A DNA stretch of 64,000 nucleotides. Origin: Immundisolibacter cernigliae. Its GTDB lineage: Bacteria > Pseudomonadota > Gammaproteobacteria > Immundisolibacterales > Immundisolibacteraceae. Position numbers and translations under genes: made by a program. The notes beneath the pieces were generated by a model, which saw only the letters and a program-made list of their open reading frames with translations, had not been told where the DNA came from and made no database searches. The stretch is taken from the NCBI RefSeq assembly GCF_001697225.1, contig NZ_CP014671.1:2542001-2606000 (forward strand). The letters are read 5' to 3'. This document shows positions 2,731-14,411 of this stretch, one piece after another (the stretch's first letter is position 1; each line of letters opens with the position of its first letter).

Positions 2731-4005
2731 TCAGCGTCGGCCGGCGGCGATCTCGGCCAGGATGCCCGGCACGTAGTCGGCGGGTTTTTCCTTCGGGTCG
2801 TTGAACTTCCAGCTGTCCAGGACGAAGGTCACGACCGTGACGTGGCTGTCCTTGAAGTTGATCAGGTAGTCGGTCTGGATCGGGCCGAATACCTTTTTGC
2901 CCTCGGGCGTGTCCTGCTCCCGCCACAGGCGCGGCAGGAACTGCACCTTCCACAGGTTGCCCGCCTTGTCGTAGTTGTCGGCCATGTGAAAGATCGGGTA
3001 CTCGACGTCGCAGTACCAGGTCTTGCGCGAGTAGTAGTGCTCGGCAGGCGGCGCCACTTCGATCACGTAAACCTCGCGCGGCACCCACTGCAATTTGGGC
3101 ATGCCGTAGGGTTTTTGTTCGGTTTCGACGTAGGGGTATTCCTCGGCCTTGGACTTGGCGTTCTGAACCCAGCCGGGGCTTTTCGGATCGCCCACCGGCA
3201 TCAGCTGCCAGCGTTTCTCCACCAGTTTCTGGTCCTTGTACCAGCCCGGATACCCGGACAGGATCCACGGCTCGTCGGACAGCAAATCGGTACCGCCGAT
3301 CGGGTCGAACCAGGCACCGCCGGACAGGCGGCGAATGCGGCGCACCGATTTCACGTAGGCGAAGATGTCGTCCAGGCGGCCGTCCATGTAACGGTAAGTC
3401 ACCGTGCCCAGGCCGCGGATGTCCTCCGGGTAGTGGGCGTACAGAATCTGCCGGTAGTGCTCCTTGCCGCCGTCGAGCGTGGGCTGCTCGGTCCCGTAAC
3501 GACCCGACATGTACAGCCGGCGGTAGAGCCAGCTGTTCTTGCGCTCGAAGCCGCGTTCCATGCTGAACAGCGCGAAGCCCAGACCCGAGGACGATGTATA
3601 GCCGATCGGACCCGCCAGGTAGTTGTTCCAGACCACCTTTTTGGCTGCATCGGGGTCTGCGACATCGATGTCCGGGAAGGGGATGCCCGCCGTATAGCCG
3701 CTGATGCGGTTATTGGCGCCGTCGAGCTGGGTCTGGCCGCGGTACTTGTCGGTGGTTTCCTTCAGGTCCGCCGGCAGCCCCGGCGCCTGCCACTGCGGCT
3801 GCAGGTTCATCGACAGGCCCTTCTCGCGGACCATCCATTTCTGGGTATCGCTGAGCAGGCTGTCCAGGCTGCGCCCGCCCAGGGTTTCATTCTTGAGGCT
3901 CTCGTAATTGCCGGCATTCAGCACGGTGTCCGGCGCAATCTCGCCGGCAAACGCCGGGACTACCGCCGCGATCAGCACCGCGGCACGAAGGGTCTGTTTG
4001 AACAT
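2731..4005 (-). CDS. DUF1329 family periplasmic/outer-membrane protein
   Basis: A 424-residue secreted protein with a clear signal peptide (MFKQTLRAAVLIAAVVPAFA, then GEIAPD). It belongs to DUF1329, often named outer membrane lipoprotein-sorting protein because of a LolA/LppX-like fold expected to hold a hydrophobic ligand. It lacks an N-terminal lipobox Cys. It follows the DUF1302 gene by 27 bp, the standard DUF1302-DUF1329 pair. Unlike the four other DUF1329 proteins in this window, it lacks the RAGNADGSIP block near the N-terminus and the LRKYG-type C-terminal tail, so it is a distinct subfamily. Function is inferred only from family and context. Confidence 0.85.
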   Translation of the reverse strand: MFKQTLRAAVLIAAVVPAFAGEIAPDTVLNAGNYESLKNETLGGRSLDSLLSDTQKWMVREKGLSMNLQPQWQAPGLPADLKETTDKYRGQTQLDGANNRISGYTAGIPFPDIDVADPDAAKKVVWNNYLAGPIGYTSSSGLGFALFSMERGFERKNSWLYRRLYMSGRYGTEQPTLDGGKEHYRQILYAHYPEDIRGLGTVTYRYMDGRLDDIFAYVKSVRRIRRLSGGAWFDPIGGTDLLSDEPWILSGYPGWYKDQKLVEKRWQLMPVGDPKSPGWVQNAKSKAEEYPYVETEQKPYGMPKLQWVPREVYVIEVAPPAEHYYSRKTWYCDVEYPIFHMADNYDKAGNLWKVQFLPRLWREQDTPEGKKVFGPIQTDYLINFKDSHVTVVTFVLDSWKFNDPKEKPADYVPGILAEIAAGRR

Positions 4006-4032
4006 TGGATTGTTTCCTCGCGAATACGGTGC

Positions 4033-5628
4033 TCAGAACTGATACGTGGCCCGCATCAGGAGCTGGTTGTTGTTGGCGAAGTAGCCGAACAGGTGGGTGT
4101 CGGTCGAAGCTGTCCACGGGTCGCCGTCGCTGAACTTGCTGTCGCCGTCGTGGAAGAAGAAATCGGCCTCGAAGCGGATGCGCCAGTGCTCGCCATACAC
4201 CAGATCGACGCTCGGAATGAAAAAGCCGCCGTTGTTGGACGGATCCCAGCCGGCCGCCAGGGTCGGGTTGATGGTGTCGTAGCGGTAGTTCATCGCCAGG
4301 ATGGCGGTGGCGACGGTGGAATGCTCCTTCTTGACCGCGGCGTGGCCCGGGCCATCGACGACTGCCCGCGGATCGCCCACGGAACGCTTGTCATAGCCCA
4401 GCAGCCAGGTGTCGAACAACTGAACCGAAAACAGCGACGGCCGGGCCGTGCCCAGCCAGCCCTCGGTCTTGAGCTGCTTGTCCATGCGCACCATGGCGCG
4501 GACGGTGTCGTGGTCGGTCACGCCGCCCAGGCTCGGCAGGGGCTGGCAAGTCAGCGGGTTGGCCGGATCGAAGCAGTTGCCGGGCGAGCCGAGCAGGTTG
4601 TAAGGCTTGTCCTTGGTATAGGCGATCTCGGTGCTGAACACCGCGTCCACCGGCTCCACGTAGCCGCTGGCGGTGAAGCCGTAGGTGCTGAGCTTCGGGA
4701 AGTACAGGCTGCCCCACAGGCCCTTGAGGTCGCCCAGGCCGGCGGTCGGGTTCCAGCGGGAGTCGATGACCGGATCGGTGCCGAACCAGCGCAGGTAGTT
4801 CAGCGTGTACTGCACCGGCCCGGCCAGGCCCGACCAGCGCAGGCCCCAGGTGGTGTCTTCCACGTCGCCGTCGCTGTGCCGGTAGTTGTAGCGCAGGAAC
4901 GCCGGGATATCGGTGCCGCGGTCCTTCTGTGGTGCCCAGCGGCCACCGAAGGTGTCGTACAGGGAGCCGATGTCGTGGTCGCGGCCCCAGCCGCCCGGAC
5001 GCAGCAGCACCTGCAGGGTGCCGTCGAGTTCCGGCATCTTGATCTGGCCGTTGATCATGGCCAGGGGGCGCCGGGTGTCCTCGTTTTCGGGTTCCAGGAA
5101 GGCGCGCCAGCGGAAGTCGTAGCCGTGCACGATGTCCATGGCCTGGAAGAAGTCCGACTCGCCCCACACCACCTGCTGGCGGCCAAGCGTGAAGCCGAGC
5201 CGCTCGCCGACGTCGAAGGCGACGTAGAACTCGCGCAGCTCGTCCTCGTTGTACTGGTCGTTGAAGTCGGTTTTCCGCGGCACGAAGAACGGCGCGCCGC
5301 CGAAGCGGGCGTTGTGCTGGTCCTCCAGGTCTTCCGAATAGCGGGTCAGCGGCTCGCGTGCGATGCGGCCGATGGCCTTGAAAAACAGCGGCCCGACCTG
5401 CGTGTCGGCGTTCAGCTGCACCACGCTGCGCAGCATCGACACATCGAACTGGTCGTCGCCGCGCAGGTCCTTGTTGTCGCTCAGATTGGTCGACACGTAC
5501 TGGCGCAGGTAGCCGCCCACGTTGATCTGCGTGTCGCCGACGTCGAACTGCACCGCCTGAGCACCGCCAGCAAGCAACGTTGCCGACGCACCAGCCAAGC
5601 CGTGAATCCATGGCTTCCATTGAGTCAT
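4033..5628 (-). CDS. DUF1302 family outer-membrane beta-barrel protein
   Basis: A 531-residue DUF1302 protein with a signal peptide ending in LLAGGAQA. It has alternating beta-strand sequence throughout, the family motif GFTLGRQQVVWGESDFF, and a C-terminal strand ending ATYQF. The terminal aromatic residue is the expected Bam-complex signal of an outer-membrane barrel. A strong ribosome site (GGGGAGGG) precedes the ATG. It lies downstream of a HpaB-like monooxygenase on the same strand (108-bp gap) and upstream of its DUF1329 partner. The likely role is outer-membrane passage or binding of a hydrophobic substrate; that is inference. Confidence 0.87.
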   Translation of the reverse strand: MTQWKPWIHGLAGASATLLAGGAQAVQFDVGDTQINVGGYLRQYVSTNLSDNKDLRGDDQFDVSMLRSVVQLNADTQVGPLFFKAIGRIAREPLTRYSEDLEDQHNARFGGAPFFVPRKTDFNDQYNEDELREFYVAFDVGERLGFTLGRQQVVWGESDFFQAMDIVHGYDFRWRAFLEPENEDTRRPLAMINGQIKMPELDGTLQVLLRPGGWGRDHDIGSLYDTFGGRWAPQKDRGTDIPAFLRYNYRHSDGDVEDTTWGLRWSGLAGPVQYTLNYLRWFGTDPVIDSRWNPTAGLGDLKGLWGSLYFPKLSTYGFTASGYVEPVDAVFSTEIAYTKDKPYNLLGSPGNCFDPANPLTCQPLPSLGGVTDHDTVRAMVRMDKQLKTEGWLGTARPSLFSVQLFDTWLLGYDKRSVGDPRAVVDGPGHAAVKKEHSTVATAILAMNYRYDTINPTLAAGWDPSNNGGFFIPSVDLVYGEHWRIRFEADFFFHDGDSKFSDGDPWTASTDTHLFGYFANNNQLLMRATYQF

Positions 5629-5657
5629 CGTTTACCCTCCCCAGGGTGATGGAAGTG

Positions 5658-5671
5658 ACCGATCGATCGGT
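5658..5671. promoter_or_regulatory. 14-bp perfect palindrome, possible operator
   Basis: ACCGATCGATCGGT lies 30-43 bp upstream of the DUF1302 start codon, between it and the HpaB-like gene. Perfect short palindromes at this distance are typical of TetR-type operators. No TetR gene is in the window, so the regulator is unknown. Confidence 0.4.
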
Positions 5672-5697
5672 TTATTTCACACTAGATGAACGCGGGT

Positions 5698-5721
5698 CAA
5701 CCTGACTCCAAGTCAAGGTTG
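5698..5721. repeat. Inverted repeat after the HpaB-like gene
   Basis: On the minus strand the sequence reads CAACCTTGACT, TGG, AGTCAGGTTG. The two arms are inverted copies differing by a single extra T. It sits just after the HpaB-like stop codon and about 70 bp before the DUF1302 start. There is no U-run, so it is either an operator (MerR-like spacing is possible) or an mRNA stem-loop between two operon genes. Confidence 0.45.
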
Positions 5722-5736
5722 CCTGCGGTGCGATGT

Positions 5737-7272
5737 CTACGGCCGCTTGGACATGAACAGGTTCACATCGGTCGGATTGATCAGGTCGGCCACCGTCCAG
5801 CCATCCAGGTCGTACTCGCCCATGCAGCGCTCGGCGAAGGCCATGAGTTCCTTGTCCAGGCCGCGCGCCTGGCCGATCCACAAATTCTCCAGGCGGATGT
5901 TCTCGTGGTTGCCGGCGTAGTTGCGCTCGTACAGTTCGTGCCGGCCGGCGAATTCGGTGCCGACGGCGTCCCACAGCAGGCGCATGGTCTTAACCCGGTC
6001 CTCGGCGTCGTGGCCATAGGAGCCGCGCAGGTACTTGTCGATATAACCGCGCAGCTCGGGCACCTTGAAGTCCACGGCGTGCGAGTTCAGGTAAATCAGC
6101 CCACTGGCGACGGCATTCTCGACCAGCTCCTTCAGGCGCGGGTAGGCCATGGTGGCGATCACCCGGTAGGCGAGGGCGCCTTGCACATTGGGCTGAATGG
6201 CGCCGTTGGGGCCGGCTTCCGGCATGCCGCACATGGCGTCCGACAGCGACCAGAACAGATGCCGCCAGGCCAGCGCCTCGCCGATCGCCACCTGCACGCC
6301 GCGGTAATCGCGGCTGCCGGTCAGCTCCACCGCCTTCATCAGCAGGCCGGTGATGAAGTCGAACTTCACCGCCAGGCGCGTGCAGCCGTGAAAGGCAAAG
6401 CGGTTGGCCCAGCCCGACGCCGGCAGGAACTGCGCCGCCTTTTCGCAGTCGCCGTAGATGAACAGGTCCTCCCACGGGATCAGCACCTTGTCCAGCACCA
6501 GGATGGCGTCGTTCTCGTCCAGACGACTGGACAGCGGGTAGTCGAAGGGACTGCCCATCACCTCCGCCTGGTAGGCATAGGACGGGCGGCAGATCAGCTT
6601 CACGCCCGGCGCGTCCATCTTGACCATGCCGGAGATGGCGTAGCGCGGGTCGTTGGTCGGCGTTGGCCCGTACTGGCCCAGAAAGTTGTAGTGCGTCAGC
6701 GCCGAGCCGGTCGCCACCACCTTGGCGCCGGACACGATGATGCCGGCATCGGTTTCCTGCTCGCAGTGCACGTAGACGTCGGCCACTTCCTCCGGCGGGC
6801 GCTGGCGGTCGATCGGCGGGTTGACGATGGCGTGGTTCAGGAATGGGCAGCGCTCCTGATTTTTCACATACCAGCGGCGGGCGTTGTCCTGGTAGGGCGC
6901 GTAGTAGTCCGGGTTGAAGCCCAGCGTGACCATGAAGCTCGCCTTGTAATCCGGCGAGCGGCCCATCCAGCCGTAGGTCAGGCGTGCCCAGGCGACGATG
7001 GCATCGCGCGCGGCGATCAGCTCCTCGCGCGTGCGGGATACCTTGAAGAACGGATGCGTGATGCCGCCGTTGCCGGTGTCGGTGGGCACCGCGATGCCCT
7101 GCGCCGGGTCGTGCAGGGCGTCGTACAGGCGGGCCAGCATGCGCGCCGGGTTGCGGAAGGCCGGGTGCGCGGTGACATCCTTGACGCGCTCGCCGTAGAT
7201 CCAGATCTCGCGCCCGTCGCGCAGGCTGTCCAGGTACTCGGCGCCGGTATAGGGGCGCACCTGATTGGTCAT
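5737..7272 (-). CDS. 4-hydroxyphenylacetate 3-hydroxylase (HpaB) family flavin monooxygenase
   Basis: A 511-residue protein of the HpaB/PvcC family, the oxygenase component of two-component FADH2-dependent aromatic hydroxylases. Family landmarks are [24 protein letters not shown] and the flavin-site segment [13 protein letters not shown], in the usual order and at normal length. A ribosome site GGAGGAG precedes the ATG. No HpaC-type flavin reductase gene is visible in the window, so reduced flavin must come from elsewhere. It heads a likely operon with DUF1302 and DUF1329. The true substrate is not known; 4-hydroxybutyryl-CoA dehydratase is a related fold but the monooxygenase reading fits better. 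Confidence 0.83.
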
Positions 7273-10259: not shown

Positions 10260-11171
10260 ATGAATTCCGCTCGCCGCGAGGCGCTGCTGCCGATCGCCGC
10301 CCTGCTGCTCGCCTGCGCCGGGGCGTGGTTCGTGCCGCAGGCCCTGGTGCCGCTCAAGGCCGCCATCGTGCCGGCGCTCGGCCTGATCATGTTCGGCATG
10401 GGCCTGACGCTGACAGGACCGCAGCTGGCCGCCGTGGTGCGCCGTCCGCGCTGGCTGCTGCTGGGCATCGGGCTGCAGTTCCTGATCATGCCGGCGCTGG
10501 CCTGGGGCATCGCGGCGAAGCTCGGCCTGCCGGCGACGCTGGCCGCCGGCCTGATCCTGGTCGGCGCCTGCCCGGGCGGTACGGCGTCGAACGTCATGAC
10601 CTATCTGGCCCGTGGCGACGTGGCGCTGTCGGTGGCCATGACGGCCGCGTCCACCCTCGTCGCGCCGCTGCTCACGCCCTGGGTCACGCTGTGGCTGGCC
10701 GGCGCGCGCGTGGACGTGCCGGCGCTGGCCATGCTCATCGACATCCTGCGCATCGTGCTGCTGCCGGTGCTGGCCGGCATGCTGCTGCGCCGTTACCTGG
10801 CCGGCTTTGCCGAGCGCCTGGCCGGCTGGCTGCCGGGGCTGTCCATGCTGCTGATCGCGCTCATCGTGGCCATCATCCTGGCCCTGAACCGCCACCAGCT
10901 GGCCGCCACCGGCGTGCTGGTGGCGACTGCCGTGGTGCTGCACAACGGCCTGGGCTTTGCGCTGGGCTATCTGGGCGCACGCCTGGGCGGCGCTGGGCCG
11001 GCGCAGCGGCGCGCCATCGCCATCGAGGTCGGCATGCAGAACTCGGGTCTGGCCACGGCGCTTGCCATCAAGTTCCTGCCGCCGCTGGCGGCGCTGCCGG
11101 CGGCGCTGTTCTCGGTGTGGCAGAACCTGGCGGGGTTGGGGCTGGCGGCCCTGTGGCGGCGCGGGCGGTAG
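10260..11171 (+). CDS. Bile acid:sodium symporter (SBF) family transporter
   Basis: A 303-residue integral membrane protein of the SBF/BASS family with about ten hydrophobic segments. The diagnostic discontinuous-helix motifs are GACPGGTASNVMTY and EVGMQNSGLATALA. The family imports organic anions such as bile acids, pantoate or 2-keto acids using Na+. The start at 10260 (MNSARREALLP) puts the first membrane segment at the normal distance; an in-frame ATG at 10197 would add 21 residues. It follows the catabolic genes and may supply their substrate, but this is inference. Confidence 0.87.
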   Translation: MNSARREALLPIAALLLACAGAWFVPQALVPLKAAIVPALGLIMFGMGLTLTGPQLAAVVRRPRWLLLGIGLQFLIMPALAWGIAAKLGLPATLAAGLILVGACPGGTASNVMTYLARGDVALSVAMTAASTLVAPLLTPWVTLWLAGARVDVPALAMLIDILRIVLLPVLAGMLLRRYLAGFAERLAGWLPGLSMLLIALIVAIILALNRHQLAATGVLVATAVVLHNGLGFALGYLGARLGGAGPAQRRAIAIEVGMQNSGLATALAIKFLPPLAALPAALFSVWQNLAGLGLAALWRRGR

Positions 11172-11288
11172 TTCCGAAAACACCCCGGATTCCGCTGCGC
11201 TGCATCCAGGCTACGGCCGAAATGCCGCCCCGGCAGACACAGTGCGGGCGGCGGCCTTAAGCTGCGCCGCGTCTACAAGGGAGCCCCC

Positions 11289-14051
11289 ATGCCGCTGAGC
11301 TGGAACGAAATCAAGGACCGCGCCCTGGCGTTCTCGCGCGAGTGGGCGCAGGTCGCGTCCGAAGACGCCGAGGCCAAATCCTTCTGGGACGATTTCTTCA
11401 ACGTCTTTGGCGTGTCGCGGCGGCGCACGGCCAGCTTCGAGCGCAAGGTCAAAAAGATTGACGGCAAGGATGGCTACATCGACCTGCTGTGGAAAGGCGT
11501 GGTGCTGGTGGAGCACAAGTCGCGCGGCAAGGACCTGGACCGCGCCTACCAGCAGGCGCGCGATTACTTTCCCGGCCTCATGGACGTCGAGTTGCCGCGC
11601 TACATCGTCGTTTCCGACTTCGCGCGCTTTCGCATCCACGATCTTGAAACCGGCGAGCAGCACCAGTTCCCGCTGCAAGACCTGCACAAGCAGGTGCGGC
11701 GTTTTGCCTTCATCGCCGGCTACCAGACCCACACCTACAAGGAACAGGACCCCATCAACCTGAAGGCGGCCGAGCGCATGGGCCGCCTGTACGACCGCCT
11801 CAAGCTCATCGGCTACGACGGCCATCCCCTGCAAGTGCTGCTGGTGCGCGTGCTGTTCTGCCTGTTCGCGGAAGACACCGGCATCTTCGAGCGCGCGCAG
11901 TTCATGGAATACCTCACCCAGCGCACCGGCGCGGACGGCTCCGACGTTGGCACGCGCCTGGCGGAGCTGTTCCAGGTGCTCAACACCCCGCCCGAACGGC
12001 GCATGCGCACGCTGGACGAACAACTGGCCGCCTTCCCGTACATCAACGGCGCGCTGTTTGGCGAATTCCTGCCCATCGCGGCCTTCGACGGCGCCATGCG
12101 GGACGCCCTGCTGGATGCCTGCGCACTGGACTGGTCCGGCATCAGCCCGGCCATCTTCGGCGGCCTGTTCCAGTCCGTGATGGACGACAAGGCCCGCCGT
12201 AACCTCGGCGCGCACTACACCAGCGAAAAGAACATCCTGAAGCTGATCGGCCCGCTGTTTCTGGACGAACTGCGGGCCGAGTTCGAGCGGATCAAGGGCA
12301 ACCGCGCCCGGCTGTTGGAATTTCACAGCAAGCTGCGCTCGCTCACGTTTCTGGACCCCGCCTGCGGCTGCGGCAATTTCCTGGTCATCGCCTACCGCGA
12401 GCTGCGCCTGCTGGAACTGGACGTGTTGCGCGCCAGCACTGGCGACGCGCGCAGCCACAGCCTGGCGCTGGACCTGCACGGCTTTCTATCCGTGGGCGTG
12501 GACCAGTTCTACGGCATCGAGATCGAGGAATTCCCGTCCCAGATCGCCCAGGTCGCCCTGTGGCTGATCGACCACCAGATGAACCTGAAGGTCAGCGAGG
12601 AATTCGGCCAGTACTTCGCCCGCATTCCCCTCACCAGCAGCCCGCACATCGTGAACGGCAACGCGCTGCGGCTGGATTGGGAGGCGGTGGTGCCGCGCGA
12701 GCGGCTGAGCTACATATTGGGAAATCCCCCATTTAAGGGCCACCACCTACAAAGTGAGGACGAAAAGCGTGACATGCTGGCCTGTTTCGGTGAAGAGAAA
12801 GCTGCTGGTGTTATGGACTTCGTTACCGCCTGGTACTGTAAGGCCGCCACGTTTATCCGCTATACGCCGATAAAGGTTGCGTTCGTCTCGACCAATTCCA
12901 TCACGCAGGGCGAACAGGTTGGAATTTTATGGCGGGCACTACAGCACAAGGCCCCAGTGGAAATACATTTCGCTCACCGCACTTTTCGGTGGAGTAACGA
13001 GGCACGCGGCGTGGCCGCGGTATTTTGTGTGATTATTGGATTCGCGGCGCACAATGCATCCGACAAAATCATCTACGCCTACGATACGGTGGATTCAGAC
13101 CCACATGCGTTCAAGGCCACGCAGATCAACGCTTATTTGGTTGACGCACCCTGGGTTCTGCTCGACAATCGTGCAAGCAATCCATTCGGAATGCCGGAGA
13201 TGATGTACGGCAGCAAGCCAACCGATAATGGACATTTCCTATTTACTGATGACGAGGCCAAAGCATTTCTCGCAGAAGAACCCGATGCGGCGAAATTCAT
13301 AAAGCCTTTTCTCAGCGCTCACGAATATCTTCACAACGAGAAGCGTTGGGTTCTGTGGCTGTTTGGGGCGGCGCCTGATGAGATCAACCGGCTGCCGAAG
13401 GTTAAAGAACGTGTGCAAAGTGTCAACCGCTTCCGCAAGGCCAGCAAGGCAGCCTCAACCCGCGCCTATCCCTACCCGACTTTGTTCCGACAAGTCACGC
13501 AACCGCGATCAGAGTATGTACTAATTCCAGGCCACACCTCAGAAAATCGCGCTTTTATTCCATTCGGTTTCTTTCCAATGGACCACATTGTTGGTAACAG
13601 TTGCTTTTCCTTGCCAGGTGCGACCAGATTTCACTTCGGCGTGATTCAGGCATCAATGCACATGGCCTGGGTGCGCTACACATGTGGTCGCTTAAAGAGC
13701 GATTTCCGGTATTCCAAGGACATCGTCTACAACAACTTCCCCTGGCCGATGGACGCCACCGACAAGCAAAAGGACGCCATCGAAACCGCCGCGCAAGGCG
13801 TGCTGGACGCCCGCGCCAGATTCCCGGATTCCTCGCTGGCCGACTTGTACGACCCGCTGACCATGCCGTCCGAACTGGTGCGGGCGCACCAGGCGCTGGA
13901 CCGCGCCGTGGACGCCGCCTATGTGCCCAGCGGCGGCAAGAAAAACTACGCCTCGGATGCCGAGCGCGTGGCCTTTCTGTTCGACCTCTACCAACGCCTG
14001 ACCAGCCTGCTGCCGGCGGTCAGACCGAAGAAGACTCGGCAAAAAAACTAG
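11289..14051 (+). CDS. MmeI-type (type IIL) restriction-modification enzyme
   Basis: A 920-residue single-chain restriction-methyltransferase, nearly the same length as MmeI. The nuclease motif is D65 (YIDLLW) with E75-H-K77 (LVEHKS), the MmeI-like D-x9-ExK spacing. A helical spacer follows. Methyltransferase motif I is DPACGCGNFL (about 355) and motif IV is NPPF (about 478). The target recognition domain lies at about 500-815, with a conserved C-terminus. Such enzymes cut about 20 nt from the site and protect it by adenine methylation of one strand. No specificity, methylase or anti-restriction partner is nearby, as expected for type IIL. Bases 12715-13735 are clearly AT-richer than the flanks. 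Confidence 0.9.
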   Translation: MPLSWNEIKDRALAFSREWAQVASEDAEAKSFWDDFFNVFGVSRRRTASFERKVKKIDGKDGYIDLLWKGVVLVEHKSRGKDLDRAYQQARDYFPGLMDVELPRYIVVSDFARFRIHDLETGEQHQFPLQDLHKQVRRFAFIAGYQTHTYKEQDPINLKAAERMGRLYDRLKLIGYDGHPLQVLLVRVLFCLFAEDTGIFERAQFMEYLTQRTGADGSDVGTRLAELFQVLNTPPERRMRTLDEQLAAFPYINGALFGEFLPIAAFDGAMRDALLDACALDWSGISPAIFGGLFQSVMDDKARRNLGAHYTSEKNILKLIGPLFLDELRAEFERIKGNRARLLEFHSKLRSLTFLDPACGCGNFLVIAYRELRLLELDVLRASTGDARSHSLALDLHGFLSVGVDQFYGIEIEEFPSQIAQVALWLIDHQMNLKVSEEFGQYFARIPLTSSPHIVNGNALRLDWEAVVPRERLSYILGNPPFKGHHLQSEDEKRDMLACFGEEKAAGVMDFVTAWYCKAATFIRYTPIKVAFVSTNSITQGEQVGILWRALQHKAPVEIHFAHRTFRWSNEARGVAAVFCVIIGFAAHNASDKIIYAYDTVDSDPHAFKATQINAYLVDAPWVLLDNRASNPFGMPEMMYGSKPTDNGHFLFTDDEAKAFLAEEPDAAKFIKPFLSAHEYLHNEKRWVLWLFGAAPDEINRLPKVKERVQSVNRFRKASKAASTRAYPYPTLFRQVTQPRSEYVLIPGHTSENRAFIPFGFFPMDHIVGNSCFSLPGATRFHFGVIQASMHMAWVRYTCGRLKSDFRYSKDIVYNNFPWPMDATDKQKDAIETAAQGVLDARARFPDSSLADLYDPLTMPSELVRAHQALDRAVDAAYVPSGGKKNYASDAERVAFLFDLYQRLTSLLPAVRPKKTRQKN

Positions 14052-14105
14052 CCTGCGCGGGGACGGTCGCCGGTACTGCGCCGGCCGGAGACCGACAGTC
14101 GCGCT

Positions 14106-14185
14106 AACGGTGCCGCGCAACGGGTCATCGCTGGCATGGGCGTGTCGGTGGTGGCGCGAGCCACGGTGTCATTGGATCGGCAGGA
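14106..14185 (+). pseudogene. Possible LysR-regulator C-terminal remnant
   Basis: In the 140-bp gap after the restriction enzyme, one plus-strand frame reads NGAAQRVIAGMGVSVVARAT. This closely resembles the effector-domain segment of LysR regulators (an A-V-x-A-G-x-G-V-S-V/L-L-S/A-R pattern). There is no start codon or DNA-binding part, so at best it is a decayed fragment left by past rearrangement. Chance similarity is possible. Confidence 0.3.
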
Positions 14186-14191
14186 TGCCGG

Positions 14192-14365
14192 TCAGAACAC
14201 CAGCACGCCCAGAAGCACCCCGAACACCAGGACGATCAGGAAGATGATCAGCGCAATGTAGAAGAGCGCCTTGGATATCGATTTGGCGCCGGACGCAACG
14301 CCGCTGAAGCCAAAGAACCCGGCGACAAGTGAAATCACGAAAAAAATCAATGCCCACTTAATCAT
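14192..14365 (-). CDS. DUF1328 small membrane protein (YtjA-like)
   Basis: A 57-residue, two-helix membrane protein starting [20 protein letters not shown]. The first hydrophobic segment is followed by [16 protein letters not shown] and a second long hydrophobic segment. This is the complete DUF1328/YtjA pattern and length. Its function is unknown. It lies 46 bp downstream of the liu operon on the same strand, and convergent with the restriction gene. Confidence 0.9.
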
Positions 14366-14411
14366 TCCAGGTTGCCGCAGCAGCCCGGCCATGCCGGGAA
14401 AACATCGTGCG

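Follow-up and report, generated by a model that had tools for sequence, protein, structure and literature searches.

Type IIL enzymes of the MmeI family are single chains of five domains: a nuclease, a helical spacer, a gamma-class N6A methylase, a target recognition domain (TRD) and C-terminal helices. Hallmarks of the family are cleavage about 20/18 bases from the site and protection via methylation of one strand, and a separate methyltransferase partner is not needed. Published engineering of MmeI-type enzymes has consisted of changes to TRD residues.

For MmeI of Methylophilus methylotrophus (PDB 5HR4), catalytic roles are known for D70, E80 and K82 of the nuclease and for H314, the NPPF motif and W570 of the methylase; K487, S488 and K489, directly after NPPF, make minor-groove contacts to base pairs 2 and 4, and T752 is well conserved (PMC4833311). 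Movement of recognition segments has been described in other classes of enzymes. In Domain Movement, reported for S subunits of Type I and Type IIG systems, a TRD is replaced by recombination in flanking conserved or repeat sequences (PMC3077401). In the passages of PMC3983042 that summarise earlier work on Type III mod genes, the recognition segment moves across species by recombination in DNA encoding conserved methylase motifs. The gene described here appears comparable in these respects, but it is of MmeI type, without a second TRD slot or a separate S subunit. Compared with what those passages describe for mod, it is a gamma-class Type IIL gene, and its segment begins at motif IV and extends through the TRD, with a shorter, TRD-only unit also exchanged.

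An MmeI-family enzyme in Immundisolibacter cernigliae

The window, a stretch of 64,000 nucleotides of the I. cernigliae genome (NZ_CP014671.1), carries at 11289-14051 (+) a gene for a 920-aa MmeI homologue. All five Pfam domains (MmeI_N, _hel, _Mtase, _TRD and _C) are found above cut-off in the protein, phmmer matches its residues 1-919 end to end onto residues 1-918 of MmeI (5hr4_C; 1121 bits), and the PADLOC model REase_MTase_IIG scores 1157 bits. The residues that align with the catalytic residues of MmeI are conserved, namely D65, E75 and K77 in the nuclease and H309, N479-P-P-F482 and W568 in the methylase. Judged from its sequence, the product belongs securely to the Type IIL MmeI family, and by analogy with the family it is predicted to cleave about 20/18 downstream of its site. 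The gene is flanked by an SBF-family transporter gene on one side and by DUF1328 and HMGL-like lyase genes, on the opposite strand, on the other; no methylase gene was found among the immediate neighbours examined. Features referred to in the text are the following (window coordinates, strand, basis).

11168-14373 (no strand): segment absent from the congeneric genome G001 (comparison with G001)
11289-14051 (+): MmeI homologue gene (Pfam, phmmer, PADLOC)
11289-12713 (+): host-like 5' flank with nuclease, helical spacer and first methyltransferase half, including motif I FLDPACGCG (GC3 0.90; proteobacterial grouping)
11481-11519 (+): nuclease active site D65...E75-H-K77, equivalent to MmeI D70, E80, K82 (alignment to MmeI; roles from PMC4833311)
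12714-13712 (+): AT-rich block, the probable specificity cassette, with motif IV, the DNA-contact loop after it, the second methyltransferase half and nearly the whole TRD (GC3 change points at 476-808; foreign codons; separate phylogeny)
12723-12734 (+): motif IV NPPF, residues 479-482, putative left anchor of the exchanged segment (nucleotide breakpoints of recent swaps at 483-485)
12741-12749 (+): loop H485-H486-L487, equivalent to MmeI K487/S488/K489 (mapped onto MmeI; minor-groove contacts from PMC4833311)
13152-13748 (+): target recognition domain, residues 622-820 (Pfam MmeI_TRD)
13206-13493 (+): predicted recognition residues for base pairs 1 and 2, Y640, K643, A721, R734 and Q735 (mapped from MmeI Y642, K645, A723, F737, Y738)
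13530-13709 (+): predicted recognition residues for base pairs 3, 4 and 6, G748/N770, S771/R807 and K803/D805 (mapped from MmeI E751/N773, A774/R810, E806/R808)
13713-14051 (+): host-like 3' flank with NNFPWP, the putative right anchor region starting at residue 815, and the C-terminal helical bundle (GC3 0.87; Pfam MmeI_C)

The protein thus resembles MmeI (5HR4; PMC4833311) over its full length, with the same five domains, active sites and positions of the recognition residues. It differs in having an HHL loop where MmeI has KSK, R and Q instead of F and Y at MmeI positions 737/738, G at 751, H749 in place of T752, and K-D instead of E-R at 806/808; its recognition sequence is predicted to differ as well.

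A block of foreign codon usage that spans motif IV and nearly the whole TRD

The first-pass annotation of this region had reported a sharp fall in G+C just before NPPF and a recovery near residue 815. Its counts are exact (26/60 at 13021-13080 and 38/60 at 12301-12360), and a two-change-point fit to third-position GC (GC3) places the block at residues 476-808, with a gain of 62 lnL units. The two-unit support intervals are 472-478 on the left, at most 7 codons upstream of NPPF, and 789-812 on the right, and both edges agree with what had been seen. GC content is 64.6% before the block (11289-12713), 51.8% within it (12714-13712) and 64.3% after it (13713-14048); the corresponding GC3 values are 0.90, about 0.57 and 0.87. 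What has to be corrected is the equation of the block with the TRD: the Pfam TRD spans residues 622-820 and the block begins about 145 residues earlier, so that motif IV and the second methyltransferase half belong to it as well.

Shuffling the order of codons (12 tries) gave gains of at most 13.6 lnL units. Among the 31 other genes of the window, gains did not exceed 16.3, and no 333-codon stretch had a GC3 below 0.80. Given its own amino acids and the codon usage of the gene's flanks, the block is expected to have a GC3 of 0.90; the observed value is about 0.56 (z -21.9). Its codons are foreign to the host, with ATA used 4 times and TCA 5 times, versus 0 and 0 in 2221 reference codons, and with leucine encoded by CTG at 5 of 19 sites, versus 232 of 280 in the reference genes. 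Codon usage in the flanks matches the reference (GC3 0.89 versus 0.90). We infer that the composition of the block is partly, not fully, adapted to its GC-rich host. A second MmeI gene in the same genome has a GC3 of about 0.90 throughout and lacks the dip; the dip is therefore imposed neither by the fold nor by the host.

Flanks and block have different histories

Phylogenies rest on an alignment of 96 homologues, mostly from 80 genome loci picked by similarity to the query protein, TRD included. In the flank tree, the query lies among proteobacterial genes together with L003, a gene of a Syntrophaceae MAG. The block tree places query and L003 as sisters (99%) within a clade of 10 genes (100%), the cassette clade, the other carriers of which are AT-rich Bacteroidota, Spirochaetota (Leptospiraceae), Cyanobacteria and Campylobacterota. 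The flank data reject a cassette clade of 9 or 10 genes (p-AU 4e-116 with 92 genes, 3e-92 with 30 genes). The block data reject the proteobacterial flank clade weakly and marginally (p 0.037), and a sister relationship of query and L003 in the flank data obtains p-values of 0.87 and 0.047 on two gene sets. The MmeI gene is a real mosaic, as had been proposed: the trees of its middle and of its ends are incongruent, and the codon usage of the middle is foreign to the host.

Identity between block and flanks was then compared in relatives. L005, the nearest proteobacterial relative by its flanks, shares 70% identity with the query over the flanks and 53% over the block. L003, the closest relative, is uniformly 69% identical in flanks and block and shows the same dip, which is the outcome that the first-pass annotation had named as counting against its proposal. 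No donor closer than 69% identity was found and the breakpoint of the query's own event could not be placed by identity; no close homologue was found in genomes of the same genus, family or order. The second MmeI copy of this genome is excluded as the donor, its block being only 48% identical. Phages were considered as an AT-rich pool and rejected: kin blocks occur in no more than 4 of 50,697 phage records (38-44% identity), and viral_contigs yielded no confirmed one. Plasmids do carry relatives (285 records), all less than 60% identical.

Exchange of the middle segment across the family

Domain replacement, invoked in the first-pass annotation for this one gene, is demonstrably common among its homologues. 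We found 120 pairs in which the N-terminal flanks share at least 80% identity and the TRD lies 20 points or more below both flanks. As a single gene can belong to several pairs, they do not count as independent events. Left nucleotide breakpoints lie at 480-500 in 43 pairs, the sharpest cases being at 483-485, in the first codons after NPPF, and at 600-700, the TRD start and just beyond, in about 56 pairs; in some distant pairs the breakpoint fit marks only a short variable stretch at 483-510. Right breakpoints fall mostly at 740-790 and less often at 803-850, at or before a conserved stretch ending in NFPWP. The Microcystis genes L010 and L055 illustrate the pattern, with identities of 99/60/59/98%, i.e. 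near-identical flanks around a diverged middle, and four Microcystis genes (L010, L032 and L055/L049) combine flanks that are 97-99% identical with three different cassettes.

The loop after NPPF and the predicted recognition sequence

Residues H485, H486 and L487 align with the DNA-contacting K487, S488 and K489 of MmeI, and all base-contacting residues listed for MmeI map between NPPF and residue 807 of the query. The start of the block at motif IV may matter because, in the crystal structure, this loop contacts base pairs 2 and 4. Among homologues, the loop HH[LYM] is paired with YKARQ at the position-1/2 sites in 10/10 cases and AM[IV] with [FW]MACQ in 6/6, counts that refer to related sequences and not to independent events. 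The top 20 columns by mutual information with loop residue 485 are all inside the block, and 721, 734, 735 and 640, the MmeI position-1 and -2 residues, are among them. Whole-block swaps nearly always changed the loop. TRD-only swaps kept it, and mainly involved SKI-type loops, which tolerate several TRD classes (FMRGE, FMARD and FQRAF). The loop after NPPF is in this way linked to recognition of base pairs 1 and 2.

Applying the MmeI rules of PMC4833311, the predicted target of the query is approximately 5'-(A/G)CNRAG-3'. Position 1 is predicted to be A from A721 and Q735, with G as the base that R734 would fit; for position 2, Y640/K643 make C probable, as in MmeI; and position 3 is written N (G748/N770). 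R or G is predicted at position 4 by R807 with the small S771, the methylated A at position 5, and G at position 6 by the K-D pair K803/D805. Since the flank relatives L005 and L019 carry other recognition residues (FMRGE, RDS), kin of the block and kin of the flanks should read different sites. That the replacement gave a new recognition site, as the first-pass annotation held, is what these residues predict.

The locus and the timing of the exchange

In G001, which is 91-92% identical on both sides, window 11168-14373 (about 3.2 kb) is replaced by 58 bp, and the MmeI and DUF1328 genes are either an insertion here or a deletion in G001. Because the gene is absent from the same place in G001 and because L003 shares the combination of flanks and block, the swap probably predates the gene's arrival in this lineage.

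Within the segment absent from G001 lies the DUF1328 gene (53 aa, window 14195-14353 (-)), which was perhaps gained or lost along with the MmeI gene. The same segment also holds, just within its edge and between the SBF and MmeI genes, a copy of a dispersed repeat (window 11184-11207), CCCGGATTCCGCTGCGCTGCATCC, which has 47 sites in the genome at ≤3 mismatches; the reversed control pattern has 0. The second MmeI gene of the genome (978 aa, L124:5747-8683 (-), G000:C1:1795752-1798664), which has no AT-rich block, overlaps a Fic/DOC-family gene (L124:8680-9840) by 4 bp and adjoins a Y1 (IS200-like) transposase gene, a setting that suggests a mobile arrival of its own. In the TRD it shares 75% identity with L092 and L097, in the N-terminal flank only 54-57%.

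A dip in GC3 across the family

Block GC3 is lower than flank GC3 in 91/96 homologues, from many phyla, and the family-mean change points are at 468 and 813. Conserved and variable sites show the same deficit. On its left, the dip starts near 470 in some genes and at about 580-635 in others, two positions that match the two classes of swap breakpoints. In the 74 carriers for which sufficient surrounding DNA was available, GC3 of the flanks tracks that of neighbouring genes (slope 1.04, intercept 0.02) and block GC3 lies below it (slope 0.79, intercept -0.01), which rules out that the flanks are GC-rich rather than the block AT-rich. Block GC3 depends mainly on the gene's own host (R2 0.82), with a further dependence on which hosts carry kin blocks (coefficient about 0.2, t 2.6-3.9, exceeding every permutation in 5 of 6 settings). 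Some GC-rich carriers, among them L002 (from the same genome), L058 and L092, have no dip or a tiny one. Given its presence in 91/96 homologues and in the uniformly similar L003, AT-richness alone cannot date or localise a replacement.

Two carriers, L003 and L009, are exceptions in that their flanks are richer than their surroundings. L003 has flanks of 50% GC, contig surroundings of 45% and a block of 40%; with flanks richer and block poorer than the surroundings, this gene too looks imported and mosaic. In L009 (Adhaeribacter rhizoryzae, match 4001-6724), GC3 is 0.60 in the flanks, 0.30 in the neighbourhood and 0.24 in the block, and the flanks, not the block, look foreign.

Discussion

We consider it probable that the gene described here is a Type IIL MmeI-family gene with an exchangeable specificity cassette as its middle part, which begins at motif IV and ends with the TRD. 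Replacement would occur by homologous recombination anchored in near-invariant motifs, after NPPF or at the TRD start on one side and before NFPWP on the other; a start at motif IV would carry the loop along and so keep it matched to the TRD. As one enzyme both cuts and methylates, the two activities would change specificity together. The query's own cassette would derive from a lineage carried by AT-rich hosts and would have been joined to a proteobacterial-type gene before arriving here. We read the family dip as the trace of an AT-biased pool of exchanged cassettes, each incompletely adapted to its host. Several observations speak against this account, among them the marginal result of the block-data test. 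L003 is equally similar to the query in block and flanks, dip included, and a single old import explains such a lasting dip poorly, because at 69% identity synonymous sites should have adapted. Also, the dip is nearly universal and extrapolation (slope 0.79, intercept about 0) would call for donors with a higher AT content than any host, so that mixing among the sampled hosts alone is insufficient and an intrinsic contribution is possible.

Such a contribution could in principle be the whole explanation, with selection or local mutation holding the silent sites between motif IV and the TRD end AT-rich in every MmeI-family gene, whatever its origin, for example to slow translation while the TRD folds. 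This would account for a dip at the same columns (468 and 813) in 91/96 homologues, for its persistence in the uniformly diverged pair of query and L003, for its presence in every conservation class of sites and for the mean offset that remains once the carriers of kin blocks are taken into account. We nevertheless regard it as unlikely, since L002, L058 and L092, where the dip is absent or tiny, show that it is not required, and since the variable left edge, matching the two breakpoint classes, and the dependence of block GC3 on the hosts of kin blocks both argue against it.

More doubtful still is a recent replacement within the lineage of this genome, the reading of the first-pass annotation, by which a resident gene acquired an AT-rich TRD and a new site. 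Host-like flanks around a block of foreign codon usage, and phylogenies that differ between the two, are what it predicts, but relative to G001 the entire gene counts as an insertion, so that there was probably no long-resident gene to be altered, and L003 has the same combination of flanks and block at uniform identity. Ordinary within-gene heterogeneity, i.e. a domain under weaker conservation in which codon choice is relaxed or the amino acids favour AT, deserves hardly any credence. The TRD is indeed somewhat less conserved (mean entropy 1.63 versus 1.2-1.3 in the flanks), but GC3 does not vary with site conservation in either flank or block, and in the block it is depressed at conserved sites too, the amino-acid-matched expectation of 0.90 is far from the observed 0.56, the borders are sharp, and nothing comparable occurs in the 31 control genes. 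The amino-acid-matched and conservation-class tests thus rule out amino-acid composition and relaxed conservation as causes of the dip.

Returning to the exchangeable cassette, we lean slightly towards a wider statement: that across many phyla the traded unit is the motif-IV-to-TRD cassette and not the TRD alone, that loop and TRD are kept matched in it, and that it circulates as a pool with a lasting AT-rich signature at silent sites, unlike the rest of the gene. The literature searched, in which coverage of key work on the MmeI family and on recognition-domain movement was incomplete, contains no description of such a unit or of its composition in MmeI enzymes, and we claim novelty with caution.

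Cassette exchange is how MmeI-type enzymes appear to change the DNA sequence that they read, and the silent-site GC dip is a marker of exchanged specificity cassettes that can be read from sequence only. The breakpoints show where nature cuts when making chimeric MmeI-type enzymes, and exchange of the whole block from motif IV has evidently been successful many times in nature.
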